This document shows, one piece after another, positions 13,637-60,370 of a stretch of 64,000 bases of DNA (positions are counted from its first letter, which is position 1; every line of letters begins with the position of its first letter). Under the pieces are notes generated by a model. That model searched no databases and was not told the origin of the DNA. It was given only the letters and a program-made list of their open reading frames with translations. Source of the stretch: Diphasiastrum complanatum (Eukaryota; Streptophyta; Lycopodiopsida; Lycopodiales; Lycopodiaceae); NCBI GenBank assembly GCA_029204225.1, contig CM055110.1:34977947-35041946 (forward strand), in the 5' to 3' direction. The position numbers and the translations under genes were made by a program.

Positions 13637-14764
<1,128 letters not shown>

Positions 14765-20324: not shown

Positions 20325-20556
20325 ACATCCTCGTATGTCATTTTTCCTCCCTCAAAAACCCTATCTTTCCATGCTCTTCATTCTAACGATTCCATGTGTC
20401 CACCCATTTTGCAAAAAGCTCAAACAACCATGATATATATTAACTTTTAGCTAGAAAAGAATAAGTATTACGGGATATAACAAGTCGTTGACCAACATTA
20501 CCCTAAAAAAAACCCTAAAGTATAGGTGACCTGATTAAAACTCATAAGACCCGTTT

Positions 20557-20695
20557 CGTATTATGGAGTGAGTCGGACAGATGGCATTCTGCCCGATAAA
20601 AAGTCATAGGGGCGGCTCGGAGGGGCCGAGACTATGATTCTTTGCCAAACAGAATGTCATCTGTCCCCACCTAGCTAATTCCATTGCATAAAGGA
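20557..20695. repeat. MITE-like element, copy 3
   Basis: Left arm ATTATGGAGTGAGTCGGACA then TGGCATTCTGCCCG; central GGCTCGGAGGGGCCGAG; right arm CAAACAGAATGTCATCTGTC ending TTCCATTGCATAA, roughly its reverse complement. Confidence 0.75.
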
Positions 20696-20887
20696 TGGAT
20701 GCCTTTTCACATAATTATTATGTCTAAGTAAAATCTACATTAATTGAAAAACATAATCAACATGACCATTATCAAGCAGAATTTGCCATCTGCAAAACAT
20801 AATCACCCTTGAAAATGATGGGTCGTCCATTTTGCTTTTCATGCAATATGGAATATGGGCAAAAAATGCAGCAACTATAATTTATAA

Positions 20888-21030
20888 TGTATTATGGAAC
20901 GTGCCGGGTAGAGGACATTCTGCTCGGTAAGGATTTCCATAATCTTTTAGGTGAGGCTCGGACTTAAAAAATTCTAGAAATCTTTACCAAGCATAATGTC
21001 CTTTGCCCGACACATTCCATTGCGTACTGG
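20888..21030. repeat. MITE-like element, copy 4 (clearest arms)
   Basis: The arms pair over about 45 bp. Left: ATGGAACGTGCCGGGTAGAG then GACATTCTGCTCGGTAAGGA. Right, read in reverse complement: ATGGAATGTGTCGGGCAAAG then GACATTATGCTTGGTAAAGA. RNA from this would form a long imperfect hairpin. No frame, no transposase. Confidence 0.8.
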
Positions 21031-21094
21031 GTACCTTGACTTTTTTCACATGTACATTATGAAGCATAATAAGCAATTTGAGTTTGATTGACCA

Positions 21095-21248
21095 ATCTTA
21101 GTGTGCCATGTGGCAACTGTATTGATCTTGTACGTACAGGCATGGTGTAAAAAAAGTAAATACATATGTCAATCTGAATGTGCCGCATGTGGCAGCTGTA
21201 CGGACGTTGTACGGACATGCAGGGTGTAAAAAAAAGTACATACATATT
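21095..21248. repeat. Two-copy tandem repeat, period about 77 bp
   Basis: Copies at 21095-21171 and 21172-21248 share TGTGCC(G)CATGTGGCA(A/G)CTGTA, CTTGTACG-like blocks, CATGGTGTAAAAAAA and TACATAT. Each begins with a near-palindrome of the GCCACATGTGGC type. Confidence 0.75.
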
Positions 21249-21591
21249 CTACTTTTTAATCTGATCAAAAAATGAGCATGATAGTCACAAGGTATCCATT
21301 ATGTCTATTGTCTATATATAAGTGTTGAGAGTCTCTCTCTTTATATATACGTAATGGATTCTTTGTGCTGATTACACCCAATTTTTGGGCTTTTTAAAAA
21401 GCATAAAATGTCATTGGATTTTTTTATATAAATTTCAAAATTCTGAAGCACATTCCAAACGCGCGTCAGACTGTGCGTCAGTCCGCGTCAAACTATGCGC
21501 GTCAGACTGCCACGTGGCAGTTTCTCATTGGTCCAAAAAAACCCACACTGCTGATTATGCTTTGTAAATGGCATGTGAAAAAATCAAAGAC

Positions 21592-21735
21592 TCCATTACG
21601 CAATGGAATGAGCCGGGCACAAGCCATTCTGCCCGATTCGGCTTGCCAAAAAAATTTAGGCTTGACGCCTCCGAGCCTCGCCCAAAAATTTTTGGAATCC
21701 TTACCCAGCAGAATGCTCCTTCCATAATACATATA
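21592..21735. repeat. MITE-like element, copy 5
   Basis: Left arm CATTACGCAATGGAATGAGC then CGGGCACAAGCCATTCTGCC; right arm CCCAGCAGAATGCTCCTTCCATAATAC is the shortened complement. It is preceded by the perfect palindrome TGCCACGTGGCA at 21508-21519. Confidence 0.75.
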
Positions 21736-21801
21736 TTTTGATGGCATTCTCTTTCTTTCTCTCTCTCTTTATATATACATATCTTTTGATGGCATTCTCT
21801 T

Positions 21802-21833
<32 letters not shown>

Positions 21834-22558
21834 TTTTTGTAGTTCTAAAGCCTAGCAAACGTGCTTAGACAACAGCTACGTTCGTAGTTTCAACCAAAGA
21901 AAATCTAGCGAGCTATGGATGCTCTACACTAGTCGAATAGCGCGTTCAGAAGCCTGCTCGACTGCAATCAAGCAGCAGATCTATCCTCTCTGTGGACGTG
22001 GACACGTCTCGCGTCCTTAAACTATGCAAGATCAAGGTTTTTTTTGTCAAGGAAGATGAGAAAAAAATCTCCTATGCGAGGTTTTACATTCCTAGTAAAC
22101 ATCAGTGACATTACCCATAAACTTTCAGGTTATGAAAAGTTGTGGTTGTGATCATTGGAAGCGGAGGTACGAGTCTTAGCTTGCTGTGGCAATTATGATT
22201 GATTCCCGTGGTTTTTAGAGAATATTTCTGTTCCGGTGGTATGTTCTTGGGTATTTCTTCATGAAGATGCACATGCTGGTTAGCCTGATCTCGATATGGC
22301 TGTCGACCCAAGGCCGAGTCTCCAGTGGGTATACGTGTAAGGGTCTAGAACCATGGATGTAGTTAGTAAGCATAGGAAAGATACATAGTTTACTTGCTTC
22401 AAAGTCTTTTTCATTACAGTTCAAACTCATCTGTCACAGCTCATCCTCCTCTAAAAAATTTTCTGTTACGGTTTTGAGATTTGGTTTGAAATATTGGGCA
22501 CCTCAGCTAGCTTCTAATAAATTATATTGCAGTGTGAGTTCTTTTCCTACTATAGCCA
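21736..22558. other. Upstream region of the FAMA-like gene
   Basis: No coding frame with a recognisable domain. It begins with CT-rich and AT-rich runs (21745-21830). This is the likely distal promoter, but no element can be assigned with confidence. Confidence 0.5.
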
Positions 22559-22569
22559 TATATAAATAG
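22559..22569 (+). promoter_or_regulatory. Candidate TATA box of the FAMA-like gene
   Basis: TATATAAATAG lies 343 bp before the chosen ATG. That distance allows a 5' leader of about 300 bp. No other equally good TATA box lies between it and the ATG. Inference only. Confidence 0.4.
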
Positions 22570-22911
22570 TGTTATCTAAGTACCACAACCATAGGGGTTA
22601 TCTACAAGTAGCTTGTCGAACTAATGTAACCCGAAATCTAGAAAGAATACTGAAAACTTAAGGTGCAATAGCTAATTGAATGGTTTGTTAATCTTTTTGT
22701 GACTAGCTTGGAAACTGGTAGTCAAGCCTCTGGAGAGGACATAATATTGAGCAATATTAAATGAAAAGAGAAACTGGGCGAAAGTTTCTCTTGAAGCTTA
22801 ACCCTCATATTCAAACATTTATAAGATTTTCTGTTCGTTTCGGGGCTCTTTGCAGATTCTCGGAGCGTTTCTCAATATATGGATAGCCCTCTTTAATTCA
22901 GATCAGATTCT

Positions 22912-24310
22912 ATGCCTGCTTTATCCAGAGAAACTGAAACTCTCATCAACTCCGAATCTATCAACATGGACATGATGGAAAACCTACTCACTGATATGTT
23001 CTCATTTCAATTTTATTCAGCACCGTCAAAATATCTGTATAATGAGAAGGCCTCTCTAGGTTTTCAGGATATGATAGAATTCTCAGATCAGTCGTCACGG
23101 TTAACATTCCGTCGATTGCTGGAGGAAAATAACGGGAGCATGGAGGAACTAGAAAGCTTTGACCCATTTCAATTGAAGCTACCCGTGCTGGAAGAGCAGC
23201 CACAACAAGAAACTAAACCTGAACAGACACCTTCATTGGCTGCTCAAATGGAAATAAGCACTATGTCAAGCGACGCTCATGAGTTACCCATCGAGCATCT
23301 CCAAAGTATAGCAGATCCGGTTGTTCTAAGTTCAACAATAGCAAGTGATGAGATCTGTGGCAAATGGATCAATCCGATCGCCTCTGAACACGACGAAGAA
23401 TCTTCTCGAAATGCTAAGTCCGGCATGCATAGCAGTCTCGAAAAAGGCCTAACGAATTCTTTAGATGGTCCTCTTTGTGGTGGACCTTCTCGGTCCAGCT
23501 CAGGCACTGACACTCAGAACAAGGCAAAGAGAAAGCGTGCCAAGTCCTGCAAAACCAGCGAGGAGGTTGAAAGCCAACGGCAGACACATATCACAGTAGA
23601 GCGCAATCGGCGTAAGCAAATGAACGAGCATCTCAATGTTCTTAGATCACTCATGCCGGGGTCATACGTTCAGAGGGTACTTTTAGTAAACCTCACAAAA
23701 TTAGCTTGACGCTGAAGTTTGTTCACACCATCTGTAGCTTACCAAACTAATATATATTCACGTCTTTCAACGAACTGTGATACAGGGGGACCAGGCATCA
23801 ATAGTCGGAGGAGCTATTGAATTTGTGAAGGAGCTGGAGCAGCTGCTTCAATGTCTCCAAGCTCAAAAGACAAGAAGAATGTTTGCTGAAGCATTTAGCC
23901 CAAAGCCTCACAATTTACTTCAACCTACGTTCCCGTCTTCTTACTCCTTTCGATCAAACTACTCTCAAGTTTGTTCTCTACCAACGGATTCAAAGTATGT
24001 GGTTGACAACTTGTATGAGCCGATATTGAAGGAAGTCTTTGCAGAATCCAAATCTGAAGTTGCCGAAGTCGAAGTTAAAGTTGTAGGAGCAGATGCTGCT
24101 GTGAAGGTATTATCGCAGAGAAGACCTGGCCAGCTATTAAAGGCTATTGCATTGCTTGAAAGCTTGTGCATGACTATAATGCAAACCAACATTACTACAA
24201 TCGAGGAAACTGTTCTCTACTCCTTCGATGTCACAGTAAGTCTGCATTCTACTATTCGCAGTACAGATCTGTTCAAGTTCCTGTGTATTACCAAAGTACT
24301 TGCTTTATCG

Positions 24311-24353
<43 letters not shown>

Positions 24354-24486
24354 ACGTTGCAAAAGTTTACAGCTTTTTTTCGATTCCCTGCAGCTGGGAT
24401 CTAGATGCAATTTAAATGTCGACGAAATTGCTGCAGCTGTCCAACATATATTTACCGTTATTCACAACGGCTGTAATACATTGTGA
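22912..24486 (+). CDS. FAMA: FAMA-like bHLH transcription factor (three exons, 435 aa)
   Basis: Nuclear bHLH factor of subgroup Ia. In Arabidopsis, FAMA drives the last step from guard mother cell to guard cells, acting with ICE1/SCRM. Exons inferred from GT-AG sites and frame: 22912-23676, 23786-24235, 24394-24486. They give 435 residues, against 414 in Arabidopsis. An N-terminal block ([24 protein letters not shown]) matches the FAMA N-region. [20 protein letters not shown] leads into the basic region with DNA-contact residues His226, Glu230 and Arg234. [21 protein letters not shown] spans intron 1, and an ACT-like tail occupies about 345-430 ([34 protein letters not shown]). The basic-region linker and LLQC favour FAMA over SPCH, MUTE or bHLH94/96. 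The retinoblastoma-binding LxCxE position reads LQCLQ (276-280). The first ATG after a stop-rich leader was taken as start. Confidence 0.92.
23677..23785 (+). other. Intron 1 of the FAMA-like gene
   Basis: 109 bp, GT...AG, phase 0. It splits the bHLH loop between QR255 and GD256 (SYVQR / GDQAS). Without splicing the frame stops at 23707-23709. Confidence 0.93.
24236..24393 (+). other. Intron 2 of the FAMA-like gene, with (CT)n microsatellite
   Basis: 158 bp, GTAAGT...CTGCAG, phase 0, between FDVT405 and LGS406. A (CT)n run at 24313-24351 occupies a quarter of it. Removal restores the ACT-like tail and places the stop TGA at 24484-24486. Confidence 0.88.
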
Positions 24487-28410: not shown

Positions 28411-28587
28411 TAGGACTGGCTTTCCCTTGGGAATCCATGTGGAAGATTAGTCTAGGTAATAGGAAAGAACTATCAGTGACTTAAGTATGGAAATATGGTA
28501 CAGAATTATAGAAGACAATTACTCTATCGGCTAGTAGAGTCTTGTACTGTAAAAGCTTATCAGGCTACGAAAATGGCTCTGATACCA

Positions 28588-29817
28588 TGTTGGGTGAAAG
28601 AGAGTGTGTGAGTGTGAGGAACAAAAATAGCTCAAAAGGAAAACGAACATGAAAAGAAATGAACTCGAGAATGAGAAATGAACTCGAACGGAATGTGTTT
28701 GTGCGCAACGGAATGAGCTATATTACTCTTTCCCTAAGCATGACTACGCCTATCAGAAATGAGCAAAATGTTAGTGATAGAAATCACAGTCGTTCTAATT
28801 ACGTAGCCAAACTTTAACAAAACATCAGAAGAATAATTTGTCACGAATAGCTAGACAAACTATTAGTCGTGAATGATTCGCGAAGAGCTAGACTGAGTTT
28901 GAATGATAATTAGTCACGAATTAGTCGTGAAAGACGAGACTAAATATTAGTCGTCAATACTAAATATTAGTCGCGAAAGGCGAGACTAAATAATAACTCG
29001 CTAAGAACAGATTACCAGATTGAGCAACAAGATAGTCAGACAAAATGAAGAAAAGCATAGCTATATTGACACAAATCTGAACATAGAACAAAAGAGCTGT
29101 TATTAGATTAAGTATAGCAAAATATACATGTCAATAATGCGGTAGAGCACAAGACAATAGCGTGTGAAACCGCGTGCTCCACAAAGCTAATCTGATCTAT
29201 AAAAGGAATGGACCTATTACTGATAATGAAGAATCAATGCGCAAGGCATCTACTTCGTCTATCTCTGATAAACTTTCGACACATGCTCTATTTTACACAC
29301 ACACTGGATACGCAGATGGTATCCAACATATATACATAATTTTACAGGTGTGCAGATGAAGAAAGTACAAAGTGGATGTGTTGTCTATAGGAGATCGTGG
29401 GTGGCTGCTGTCGTTGTCAAATCTGATTGCACAGTTGCATGGGATGAGCTTGAGAAGGCCGTGACACTAGCCTTTGCTAAAATGAACATTGGTGAAGATG
29501 CAAAAAATGCATCACTTTGTCGAAATGCTTTAGGATTTGATTTACAGGGTGCCTTTGCTTGTCCATTAGGGTGCCTTCGGCATTTGTAGGGTAGTGTCGC
29601 CTTTTTTGCCTGTCACAAATCACGTGTAAAAACACAGTGTCGCTTTTTTTTTTCGCCTGTGAGAATTTACTTGTATTTATGCAGACAGTCGTGTTTTATT
29701 CATTTGTCTTATTTTACATGTAAATATACAGACTGTGCGACAACGTGAGTAAAAATGCAGCATGAATGGAGGCAGATTAAAATGTGATTTAGGAGAGTAG
29801 AGGAGATAAATCCAACA
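28588..29817 (-). repeat. 5' LTR of A2
   Basis: Same family as 40205-41428 and 56439-58387. It includes short repeats built on TAGTCGTGAATGATTCGCGAA at 28840-28990 and ends ATCCAACA. Confidence 0.9.
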
Positions 29818-30942
29818 AGAACAATATATAGAGAGTACAAAGTTTTGCTGAATTCCAACTAAATTCAGTTTACCATTCTTGGAACCATTAGGATTCAGTA
29901 TCCAATTGAGCTCACAGGGATATTATCACTAATGAATCAAGTTTAACCTTAATTTAATCTTTACCACTACAATCCATAATCATGAATATTTAACTATTAC
30001 AGCTTATTCTCAGCAACTATCTAGAGAATTGATGGTATTGCAGTTCCAATCTATGTTCTACATTCGCAGTAATTAGATCCATGAAGCAACATCACTAATA
30101 GCTTAATTCAATTGGAAAATTTAATCTTCATCATTCATTCACTAAACAAAATTAGTCATGCATGAATCCAATCCCAAAGAACATTATGGACCCTTGCAAC
30201 TATCAAAAGCTCCATAGTATGGGAGTCCAAACAACAAGCTACATAATTCACACATGCAAATCATTAAACATGAGTTGGAAATCTTCTCAAGAAACCATAA
30301 AATTAAGATTGAATTTCAAGACTAATTCTTAGCATCTCCTTAAATTCAAAACTTCCCTTGAGAAATTAGCACTCCAATCCGGGAGGCAATTCCAAGTGCT
30401 TCCTCTTTCCAATCCGATGTAGAGCTTGTCTCCAATCCCATCCAAGAAACCACATCCTAGCCGAGCTTTGATACCAATGTAAAGACCACTAGGGAAAATC
30501 CCTACGATGAGGATAGGAAAACACAACAGGAGACATGTAGGAGCAAAACCTCCCAACCAATCCTAGATCAACCCTGGATCTAGCCCCTGAGCCATGCCAT
30601 GTGAAAGCTAGAGGAGAAGAGAGCAACTGGTAACCTGAACCCAAGTTGTCAATGGGAGAATCCCTACCCCAATATATAGAGAGTAGATTTATGTGTATGA
30701 ACCCATGCAATCCCCATGCAGGTCAACTATTAATAGGTCACATCTCTTCATGCAATCCTCCTGCCTATATCCATCACACGTACATGCACTACTCCATATG
30801 TCTCAATTAGAGTGTCTGGGTCCTCTCAGGGTTATTAGTCACAAACTGCTTGACATCGGCGTGACCAATAATCCCAAACACCGGAGGGCCAGTCTACCAT
30901 ATTAGGACTATTTCATGTTCTTAACAGAATATGGCCGTAACA
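29818..30942 (-). mobile_element. Family D non-coding LTR element fragment (D2)
   Basis: The LTR 30478-30942 (465 bp) resembles both D1 LTRs. The primer-binding site on minus reads TTGGTATCAAAGC (30465-30477, one change). The internal part 29818-30464 aligns by eye with D1 internal DNA (shared blocks near 43950 and 49120) and has no coding frame. The left part was lost at the edge of the A2 LTR. Minus strand. Confidence 0.8.
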
Positions 30943-40204: not shown

Positions 40205-41428
40205 TGTTGGAGAAAGAGGGTGTGTCGTGTGTGAGAAATGAAAATAGCTCAAAAAAGTAATGAACACGAAAAGAAACGAACTCAAAATTCGAACAAGAAA
40301 CAAACTCGAACAGAATGTGTTCATGCGCAGCAGAATGAGCTATATTACTCTTTCCCTAAGCATGACTATGACTATCAGAAACAAATAGAACATTAGTGAT
40401 AGAAATCACAGTTGATCTGATTACGTAGCCAAATATTAATAGAACATCAGAAGAATAATTTGTCGCGAATAGCTAGACAAATTACTAGTCGTGAATGATT
40501 CACGAAAGAGCTAGACTGAGCTCAACTGATAATCAGCCGTGAATGATTCGCGAAAGGCGAGACTAAATATTAGTCGTCAACAACTAGACTAATAATAACT
40601 CGCTAAGAACAGATTACCAGATTGAGCAACAAGATAGTCAGACAGAATGAAGAAAAGTATAGCGATATTGACACACATCTAAACGCAGAACAAAAAGAGC
40701 TATCATCAAATTAAGTATAGCAAAATATACATGTCAATAATGCAGTAGAGCACAAGACAAGGGCGGATGAAACCGCGTGCTCTACAAAGCTAATTCGATC
40801 TGTAAAATGGAATGAATATATTATTGACAATAAAGAATCAATGCGCGAGGGCATCTACTTCGTCTATCTCTGATAGTCTTCTGATACATGCTCTACTTTA
40901 CACACACTTCATTCATCAGTTTTGAATACGCAAATGGTATTCAATATGTACACAATGTTACAGGTGTGTAGATGAAAAAAGCACAAAGTGGATGTGTTGT
41001 CTGTAGAAGATCGTGGGTGGCTGCTGTCGTTGTCAAATTCGTTAGCACAGTTGTATGGGATGAGCGTAAAAAGGGTCATAATGTCAGCCTTCGCTGAAAT
41101 GAATGTTGGTGAAGTTGCGAAAAATGCGTCACTCTGACGAAATGCCTTAGGATTTAATTTATAGGGTGCCTTCGCTTTTCCTAGAGCACCTTTGGCATTT
41201 TGTAAGGTACCTGTCACAAAATGCGTGTAAAAACACAGTGTCGCGTTATTTTCGTCTTTTCTTCACTTGTGAGAATTTACTTGTATTTATATAGACTGTC
41301 GTATTTTATTCGTCTATCTTATTTTTACATGTACATATGCAGACTGTGCAACAACGTGAGTAAAAATACAGCATGAATGGAGGCAGATTAAAATGGGATT
41401 TAGGAGAGTAGAGGAAATGAATCCAACA
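40205..41428 (-). repeat. 3' LTR of A1
   Basis: 1224 bp, TGTTGGAGAAAG...ATCCAACA, near-identical in length to the A2 LTR (1230) and to the 5' LTR without its insert (about 1238). Short TAGTCG/TTCGCGAA repeats at 40460-40600. Confidence 0.93.
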
Positions 41429-42280
41429 CCCCCCCTTAATTTGGATCCATGAATGTCTTGATCTTCAGACTAAGCAATGCACAAAATTTGTTGTGTGCAT
41501 TAATACTTAATGCTTTCGTGAATATATCTGCAACCATGTCTCGCGTTTTGCAGTACGTTAAGCTCACCTCCTTGTTGCCTTGATGTAGTGATATCTAATT
41601 TCAATGTGCTTACTCCTAGACTGAAATCTAGAGTTGGCCGCAATAGCACTCTGATTATCACAGAATAAAATTGTAGGGTTGCAATGATACAAATCAACGT
41701 CTAACAGTAAATTTCTCAACCAAAATGCTTCCTTAATAGATTGAGAAGCAGCAATGTATTTTGCTTCTATAGAAGAAAGTGCGATAGAGGTTTGCTTACG
41801 ACTGTTCCATGAGATAGGACCGCCATTGAAGAAGAATGTAAATCCGGATGTGGACTTATGATTGTCTACATCTCCTCCCCAGCCTGCATCAGAATATCCA
41901 TTGAGTTGATGAATATTGTCGTTGTTGACGTCTCCATAGCAGATGCACTGGTCCATGGTAGCTCGAATATATCTCATGGCTCTTATGAGAGCCTTCCAAT
42001 GGGTAATGCCAAGATTAGCCATATATTGGCTGAGTGAGCTTACTACAAAAGAGATATTTGATCTTGTACAGACCATTGCGTACATGAGAGATCCAAGTAT
42101 CGATCGATAAGGATACTCTCTCATCTGCTCCTCTTCCTGCTTGGTCTGGAGACATTGGTCCTTTGACAAATGCAGGCCTAGATCCATCGGTGAGTGAGCT
42201 AACTTACAATTCATTAGATTGTATATGTTAAGAACATTGTGAAGATACCTTTGTTGAGTGATGTAATCAGTCATCTCGCT
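41429..42280 (-). pseudogene. Copia RT end and RNase H (A1)
   Basis: Open on minus from the D1 junction: YRSILGSLMYAMVCTRSNI (RT C-terminus), YSDAGWGGDVDNHKSTSGFTF, ISWNSRKQTSIALSSIEAKYI, FCDNQSAIAANSR, HIEIRYHYI. The RNase H Glu is kept in SSIEAKY. The final FTKAL block is broken by a frameshift near 41560. The polypurine tract lies at 41429-41437. The open frame that runs on to 42535 reads into the D1 LTR and is an artefact past 42285. Confidence 0.9.
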
Positions 42281-42285
42281 CTGTC

Positions 42286-42765
42286 TGTTATGACCCTCAT
42301 AAGGTTTGCCCCTAAGATGAGGATAGGAGAACACAAAAAGAGAGACTATAGAGCCAAACTGCCCAACCAATCCTAGATCAAACATGGATCTAGCCCCCAA
42401 GCCATGCCATGTAAAGCAAGAGGAGAAGAGAGAAACTGGTAACCTAAACCCAATATGTCGACAGGAGAATACCCACCTCATTATATAGAGAACAGAGTCA
42501 TGTGCATGAAACCATGCAACCCCCATGCAGGTCAACTATAAATAGGTCTCATCTCTTCATGCAGTCCTCCTGTCTATATTCGTCACACAGACATGCAATA
42601 CTCCATATGTCTCAATTAGAGTGTCTAGGTCCTCTCAAGGTAATTAGTTACAAACTGGCCTTGACATGGAGTTAAATCATGGCGTGACCAATAATCTCAA
42701 GTACTGGAGGGCCGGTCTACCATATTAGGACTATTCCAAGTCTTTAACCAAATATGGCCATAACA
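42286..42765 (-). repeat. 3' LTR of D1
   Basis: 480 bp, complete. Includes a TATATA box at about 42483 and several CATGCA motifs (42513-42595). Confidence 0.93.
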
Positions 42766-56438: not shown

Positions 56439-58387
56439 TGTAGGAAAAAGAGGGTGTGTCGTGTGTGAGAAACGAAAATAGCTCGAAAAGAAAGCGAACA
56501 CGAAAAGAAACGAACTCGAAACTCGAACAAGAAACGAACTTGAACGGAATGTGTTCATGCGCAACGGAATGAGCTATATTACTCTTTCCCTATGCATGAC
56601 TACGCCTATCAGAAACTAACAGAACGTTAGTGATAGAAATCACAATCGATCCGATTACGTAGCCAAACGTTAATAGAACATCAGAAGAATAATTTGTCGC
56701 AAAAAGCTAGACAAATTATTAGTCGCGAATGATTCGTTAAAGAGCTAGACTGAGCTCAACTGATAATCAGTTGCAAATGATTCGCGAAAGACGAGACTAA
56801 ATTTTAGTCGTCAACAACTAGACTAATAATGACTCACTAAGAACAGATTACCAGATTGAGCAAAAAGATAGTCATACAAAATGAAGAAAAGCATAGCAAT
56901 ATTAACACAAATCTGAACGCAGAACAAAAAGAGCTGTTATCAGATTAAGTATAGCAAAATATACATGTCAATAATGTGAAGATTATTAAAATATTATCTT
57001 TCTATCTCAAGTTTGGGGCCATGTCCATGGTTATTTCCATTGTATTTCATGTTGTACATAAAAGGTTTGTGAATTGAGCACATAACCTTCTAGTATAAGT
57101 CGGATTTGAGTTAGATAGATTCAATTTTGATGACATGCAGAAGTTTAGATAGCATGCAATGTCATACTGTATGCATGCAAGCCACATGCAATCAAAGCAT
57201 GCAACATGCAAAGTGGTTTCTGTGATCTACACATGTCTAGGCAGTTTTATGAGTTGACATGCAGTACATGCAATATCCATGCATGCAGTTACACATGTGG
57301 ATCTCTGGTAGGTGAATTAGTTCAGTTAAGTGGACTTTCCATGCAACTCCACTGTAAAAATTCGAGTCTCTCTCATGTAGGGAAATCTTGGCATGTTTTG
57401 CAATATTGTGAATAATGAGATTTTGGTTTTTTTTTTTTACTCATTCTCTCTCTACCCGAGTTTTCTATCATTGATTTTCTCTCTCTACTCGAGAGCAGCC
57501 TGTTTTTCCCATACTGAACACTTAGAATTATTTCTGACATTCATTTCTCATAGTGAGAAGTTAGATTTTTTTCATCACATGTATGCCATTGTGCTCTTGC
57601 CATAGTTTTTTCAAGTATAATATTCTCTGATCAATCCTGTAGGGTGTGTGGTGAAGTTCACACGTGCTAAAAACTTTACAAATAATGCGGTAGAGCACAA
57701 GAAAATAGTGGATGAAACCGCGTGCTTTACAAAGCTAATTTGATCTGTAAAAAGGAATGAATCTATTACTGACAATAAAGAATCAATGCGCGAGGGCATC
57801 TACTTCATCTATCTCCGATAGGCTTCTGATACATGCTCTATTTTACACACACTTCATTCATCAGTTCTGAAAACGCAAATGGTATTCAATATATACACAA
57901 TGTTACAGGTCTGTAGATGAAGAAAGTACAAAGTGGATGTGTTGTTTGTAGATGATCGTGGGTGGCTGTTGTCGTCGTCAAATTTGTTAGCACAGTTGTA
58001 TGGGATGAGCGTAAAAAGGGCCGTAACATCAGCCTTCGCTAAAATGAACGTTGGTGAAGATGCGAAAAATGCGTCACTCTGACGAAATGCCTTAAAATTT
58101 GATTTATAGGGTGCCTTCGCTTTTCCTAGGGCACCTTTGGCATTTTGTAAGGTAGTGTCATCTTTTTTGTCTTCACAAAACGCGTGTAAAAACACAATGT
58201 CGCGTTCTTTTTGTCTTTTCTTCGCTTGTGAGAATCTACTTGTATTTATCCAGACAGTCGCATTTTATTCGTCTGTCTTATTTTTACATGTAAATATGCA
58301 GACTGTGCGACAATGTGAGTAAAAATACAGCATGAATGGAGGCAAATTAAAATGGGATTTAGGAGAGTAGAGGAGATAAATCCAAAA
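56439..58387 (-). repeat. 5' LTR of A1, split by a solo LTR
   Basis: Pieces 56439-56974 and 57681-58387 make one LTR of about 1.24 kb after removal of 56975-57680 and one AATAA copy. The right end reads TCCAAAA (TCCAACA in the sister LTR) and is followed by the GGTAG duplication. Confidence 0.92.
56975..57680. mobile_element. Solo LTR with target duplication AATAA
   Basis: 706 bp, TGTGAAGATT...AACTTTACA (TG...CA), flanked by AATAA at 56970-56974 and 57681-57685, inside the A1 LTR. No internal region remains, as after LTR-LTR recombination. It has about eleven CATGCA motifs at 57134-57345, CT-rich runs and CACACGTG near its right end. The family has no other copy here. Confidence 0.9.
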
Positions 58388-58442
58388 GGTAGAAGAGCAA
58401 AGGCATGCAAAGTTTGATCATTGTCTTTCTACAAGTACAAGT

Positions 58443-59863: not shown

Positions 59864-60370
<507 letters not shown>

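Follow-up and report, generated by a model that had tools for sequence, protein, structure and literature searches.

The FAMA-like gene described here raises the question of what it means when the motif through which FAMA binds RBR ends in glutamine instead of glutamate. In Arabidopsis, the binding of FAMA to RBR runs through an LxCxE motif, and SPCH and MUTE are without this motif, as stated in passages of PMC4225492. The same passages describe FAMA-LGK, in which RBR binding is abolished and guard cells re-enter the lineage; this variant alters the C and the E jointly, and thus gives no measure of the change from E to Q alone. A preliminary description of the locus offered two possibilities: that FAMA may bind RBR weakly or by some other route in this lineage, or that the gene may be a paralogue that has lost this function.

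The window gene encodes LQCLQ at the site of the FAMA motif

The window, that is, the whole 64-kb stretch of DNA that was analysed, contains on the + strand a FAMA-like bHLH gene (SMF, group Ia) with three spliceable exons. The features to which we refer are the following.

22879..22896, + strand: upstream frame MDSPL-stop, opened by ATG, five codons, closed by TAA
22912..23676, + strand: exon 1, residues 1-255; ATG 22912 is the first in-frame ATG downstream of a stop
23044..23196, + strand: N-terminal stretch like the FAMA-unique domain I, residues 45-95
23572..23580, + strand: SQR motif, residues 221-223, adjoining the basic region
23575..23667, + strand: first part of the bHLH (Pfam HLH), in exon 1, 32.3 bits (cut-off 20.7)
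23677..23785, + strand: intron 1, GT..AG, 109 nt, between VQR and GDQAS
23786..24235, + strand: exon 2, with the second helix of the bHLH, LQCLQ, the linker and the larger part of the SMF (ACT-like) domain
23846..23860, + strand: LQCLQ (LxCxQ), CTT CAA TGT CTC CAA, residues 276-280, at the site of the FAMA LxCxE
23897..23908, + strand: SPKP, directly after the bHLH, common to the window gene and the paralogues C13a and C13b
24065..24232, + strand: exon-2 part of the SMF / plant bHLH ACT-like domain (PF22754), 27.7 bits (cut-off 27.6), marginal
24236..24393, + strand: intron 2, GT..AG, 158 nt
24394..24486, + strand: exon 3, end of the SMF domain and stop codon TGA

The joined exons comprise 436 codons including the TGA stop (435 residues), with zero internal stops. 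Residue numbers assume the ATG at 22912; the ATG at 22966 is an alternative possible start. The short frame at 22879-22896 looks by eye like the start of paralogue C13a (MDCPLDSM), and it is possibly an old start that now forms a uORF, the start having shifted in the window gene.

The preliminary description had read residues 276-280 as LQCLQ, with CAA at 23858-23860 as the last codon, and had pointed out that GAA and CAA differ by one G-to-C change; coordinates, numbering, codon and base change are all right. It had also called the rest of the bHLH and the ACT-like tail conserved, which is correct for the bHLH, while the tail clears the Pfam cut-off only just, with a score computed for exon 2 alone. 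The exon-2 part of the SMF domain is alignable in all seven paralogues (see below). The patterns L.C.E, L.C.[DE] and [LIVMF].C.E are absent from the entire window protein, and none of them gives a further RBR-binding site in it.

Among solved structures, MYC2 (5gnj) matches the bHLH stretch best, in an alignment that covers the motif region; for the SMF domain there was no match with E ≤1. An AlphaFold model of exon 2 alone had a mean pLDDT of 41 and was not used. Searches of prokaryote-genome and viral contigs, with two queries per collection, confirmed no relatives.

The G+C content of the window is ∼36-42% per 4 kb, and many of its frames look by eye like polyproteins of Copia-type retroelements. 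Nested imperfect inverted repeats, resembling a foldback element, lie at 20575-21715, 1.2-2.3 kb upstream of the gene, and there are nine inverted-repeat pairs in 20400-22900. A dispersed repeat occurs at 28583-30848, 40205-42657 and 56439-58415, with pieces present two or three times that are 70-92% alike; two ORFs from this repeat had zero Pfam matches. Microsatellites are found at 14206-14324, a perfect (GA)59, and at 60261-60370, a compound (TG)27-(GA)28.

Glutamine is found in six of at least seven group-Ia loci

The bHLH stretch was used to search the genome's own assembly (1.74 Gb, 5,176 contigs) at E ≤0.001, and yielded 16 exon matches in eight places. One of these, on C2981, repeats the C13b region with 99.83% identity across 5,949 bases and was not counted as a separate locus. 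This leaves a minimum of seven different loci of group Ia (SPCH/MUTE/FAMA-type), the window gene included, which we designate by contig. The motif reads LQCLQ in the window gene (C19), LDCLQ in C13a, LECLQ in C13b, C2, C11 and C4, and LQCLE in C12; that is, six of the seven loci have glutamine and one, C12, has glutamate. The glutamine codon is CAA in all six of these loci, which are spread over five contigs, and all seven loci have the L and the C of the motif. The second motif position is acidic (E or D) in five of the six glutamine copies and is Q in the window copy.

Gene structure is shared as well. The edges of intron 1 and the donor of intron 2 fall at the same codons in 7/7 loci, with GT and AG ends, and intron 1 has a VQR-type sequence on its exon-1 side and GDQAS (SDQAS in C2) on the other. 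Exon 3 was located by motif in three of the six paralogues (C13b, C11 and C4).

The preliminary description had proposed to look for a second FAMA locus; a separate locus, on C12, reads LQCLE. We rejected the idea that the genome's only FAMA-type gene is one without the motif, given the LQCLE of C12.

Three further observations concern individual paralogues. C13a and C13b, at C13:35572022 and C13:35609250, are ∼37 kb apart and likely represent a tandem duplication. In C13b a stop precedes the conserved N-terminal stretch, and there is no Met where C13a has one; C13b may have lost its start. The predicted C2 protein has LPCLD (LxCxD) near the N-terminus, at residues 3-7, a possible candidate for a second RBR site.

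The LxCxQ group is old and under constraint

Distances were calculated by the Nei-Gojobori method over exons 1 and 2. The synonymous distance is 0.49-0.61 within the set of the window gene, C13a and C13b, 0.68 between C11 and C4, and from 1.7 to saturated between groups; synonymous sites are saturated in 7 of the 21 pairs, including all six pairs with C12. In the 14 of 21 pairs in which it could be computed, Ka/Ks is 0.13-0.38, with a value of 0.27 for the window gene and C13a. Amino-acid constraint is kept among the paralogues.

A maximum-likelihood tree was built from 177 columns and 12 rows, consisting of the seven loci and five Arabidopsis Ia proteins in provisional sequence versions. The six glutamine loci split from C12 and the five Arabidopsis rows with an ultrafast bootstrap of 97 (FastTree 0.960). 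The same split is obtained when the E/Q column is removed, with values of 93/0.929 for 12 rows and, after removal of some of the Arabidopsis rows, 92/0.943 for 10 rows and 92/0.926 for 8 rows. Another residue, N-terminal to the basic region, tracks the split, being Q in the six loci and M in C12 and the five Arabidopsis rows. Within the glutamine group, bootstrap values are weak (48-68), except for C13a with C13b (88-92) and C11 with C4 (94-96). C12 stands beside all five Arabidopsis rows as one group (75), and in the 10-row tree with SPCH and MUTE (50); it is nearer to the Arabidopsis rows than is the window gene, and neither of the two joins FAMA specifically.

If the glutamine resulted from a lesion in a single copy, from a sequencing error or from the decay of a pseudogene, one G-to-C change would suffice, and the start region of the window gene is unsettled. 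However, the presence of CAA in six of the seven loci argues against chance or sequencing error; these loci lie on five contigs and their synonymous distances run from 0.49 to saturated, which makes the glutamine a long-standing state of a set of paralogues and not a recent lesion or error. Moreover, the window frame is intact from the ATG at 22912 to the stop, and the low Ka/Ks with C13a speaks against decay. This explanation is scarcely credible, and we rejected a recent lesion or sequencing error since five other loci carry the same codon. Judged from the sequences, LxCxQ is an old, fixed state of a six-member SMF paralogue group, not damage to one gene.

The direction of the change is a separate matter: the tree has no bryophyte root and so does not give E to Q or Q to E. 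All five Arabidopsis Ia proteins compared (FAMA, SPCH, MUTE, bHLH71 and bHLH96) have E in the motif column, and for this reason we lean towards E as the older state. The opposite reading is that Q was ancestral or neutral in early SMF proteins, with the column serving mainly helix 2, that E gained RBR docking only towards seed-plant FAMA, a state shared by C12, and that the window gene lost nothing. The root may indeed fall inside the glutamine group, and the L and C are found in every one of the seven copies, whether E is present or not. The motif also varies, as passages of PMC4225492 call LxCxE conserved among dicot FAMA orthologues and passages of PMC9940870 give IxCxE for grass FAMAs. Against an ancestral Q stand the E of the five Arabidopsis proteins and the E of C12, and we consider this reading somewhat unlikely. 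Thus, the earlier suggestion that the window gene is a paralogue is favoured by C12, with LQCLE and a place on the Arabidopsis Ia side of the tree, but it need not have lost a function, since Q may be ancestral.

RBR-type genes are present

Seven matches to RB_B exons were found in the genome, on C21, C22, C10 and C1. The second half of RB_B reads FYNE in three kinds of sequence (C21, C22, and the C1 and C10 copies, which have the same printed translation). In the first half, the three loci on C21, C22 and C10 share IYGVCK. We tentatively take FYNE and IYGVCK to be positions that form part of the LxCxE cleft (human Y709, K713, Y756 and N757; Arabidopsis N849). Four of the seven matches have in-frame stops inside them, which we read as introns. 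The RBR partner of the LxCxE motif seems to be present, and unaltered where its sequence was checked. The two second-half matches at C1:75736616 and C10:62560129 have equal scores, and may reflect either an RBR-type gene that was duplicated recently or a duplicate that arose in assembly.

C12 keeps LQCLE, and RBR-type genes with the putative cleft residues exist; the motif is thus still present in this genome. The first possibility raised in the preliminary description, taken as a loss across the lineage, is not favoured.

These genes also bear on whether LxCxQ might bind RBR well enough in this plant, by way of an acidic neighbour or an altered RBR, such that the substitution is without functional effect. 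Binding to the RBR cleft by proteins without LxCxE is reported in passages of PMC11649800, and motif position 2 is E or D in five of the six glutamine copies; the acidic residue within LECLQ or LDCLQ could partly compensate for the missing E. The window copy, however, has Q at that position, and the RBR loci look unchanged at the putative cleft residues. Moreover, a grass FAMA with IxCxE enforces guard-cell fate incompletely in Arabidopsis, according to passages of PMC9940870. On balance, adequate binding through LxCxQ is improbable, though less so than an error or lesion.

Comparison with known SMF proteins

The Arabidopsis reference sequences used for identity counts were provisional, and the counts are leads, not database matches. 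FAMA is the best match to the window protein, with 71/85 identities over the extension and bHLH and 47/86 in the SMF domain. The corresponding counts are 48/86 and 39/86 for SPCH, 41/68 and 35/86 for MUTE, 52/86 and 35/86 for bHLH96, and 50/81 and 30/86 for bHLH71. The window protein is like FAMA (AT3G24140) in domain order, SQR, bHLH and SMF domain; the N-terminal stretch may correspond to domain I, with 14 of 47 aligned residues identical to FAMA over 51 columns. It is unlike FAMA in having LQCLQ where FAMA has LQCLE, in the SPKP linker, and in belonging to a six-member group apart from C12. SQR beside the bHLH is proposed as a feature of true FAMA orthologues in passages of PMC6828996.

The window protein resembles SPCH and MUTE in being a group-Ia protein without LxCxE, which is stated for these two in the passages of PMC4225492 cited above. 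The window protein keeps the L and C and is without E, whereas in SPCH and MUTE the C is missing. Their motif sites presumably read LQSLE and VQVLE, respectively. The sequence AEAFSPKP (window 23885-23908; AEAFSPKP or AKAFSPKP in C13a and C13b) resembles AEVLSPR of SPCH, at the beginning of its MAPK target domain. Unlike SPCH, the window protein appears to lack the long MAPK target domain, and in the alignment it has a single SPKP after the bHLH. This SPKP is a possible candidate for a kinase site in the FAMA-like copies.

Grass FAMAs, including that of Brachypodium, provide another natural variant of the RBR-binding motif. Passages of PMC9940870 describe their IxCxE as possibly weaker in RBR interaction, and report that BdFAMA in Arabidopsis gives a stoma-in-stoma-like phenotype. 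In grass FAMAs, however, the first motif residue is altered, while in the window protein it is the last; and IxCxE is found in grass FAMAs generally, whereas LxCxQ marks one paralogue class beside another within a single genome. Passages of PMC3823973 also note several FAMA-like SMF copies per genome, as found here, for Selaginella (three) and Physcomitrella (two). A set of several FAMA-like copies and a genome of this size would suit a lycophyte or a fern; a search for the IFT57 family, made exon by exon, had no match and is uninformative on lineage. No LxCxQ SMF protein was found among the literature matches listed or in the passages cited here.

A possible division of labour among SMF paralogues

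Our best explanation, which we hold with middling confidence, is that the window gene belongs to an expanded LxCxQ group of SMF genes without FAMA-type RBR docking, and that C12 keeps the docking. The LxCxQ proteins would retain dimerisation and DNA binding by way of the bHLH, and would dock on RBR through this motif less strongly than LxCxE proteins. C12, with LxCxE, would tether RBR and lock guard-cell fate, a FAMA-type role, and the LxCxQ copies would act earlier or elsewhere, like the motif-less SPCH and MUTE in Arabidopsis. Poor docking of the LxCxQ copies and a docking role for C12 are proposed because of the analogy with Arabidopsis and grass FAMA.

Several points count against this division of labour. 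As noted above, the RBR cleft also binds proteins without LxCxE (PMC11649800), and passages of PMC12197514 report that LxCxD is functional in one viral protein. The Rb epitope is described as LxCxEx(I/L) in passages of PMC11931385; C12 reads LQCLEEQ, without the I/L, so that the epitope is incomplete there too. In addition, the glutamine copies look by eye more like FAMA than C12 does in the domain I stretch.

A broader claim, which we regard as rather doubtful, is that the SMF genes of this lineage diverged into a single LxCxE copy that docks on RBR and an expanded class of LxCxQ copies that do not, and did so independently of the division between SPCH/MUTE and FAMA in flowering plants. If true, this would be parallel evolution of ‘divide’ and ‘lock’ roles by way of one residue.

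The result bears on the origin of RBR docking in FAMA-type proteins, which may be ancestral or may have been acquired when tasks were split among the SMF genes. One genome holds an LxCxE copy, several LxCxQ copies and RBR-type genes with a seemingly intact cleft, and thus provides natural paralogues that differ at the decisive residue, so that the docking question is directly testable by binding and complementation.
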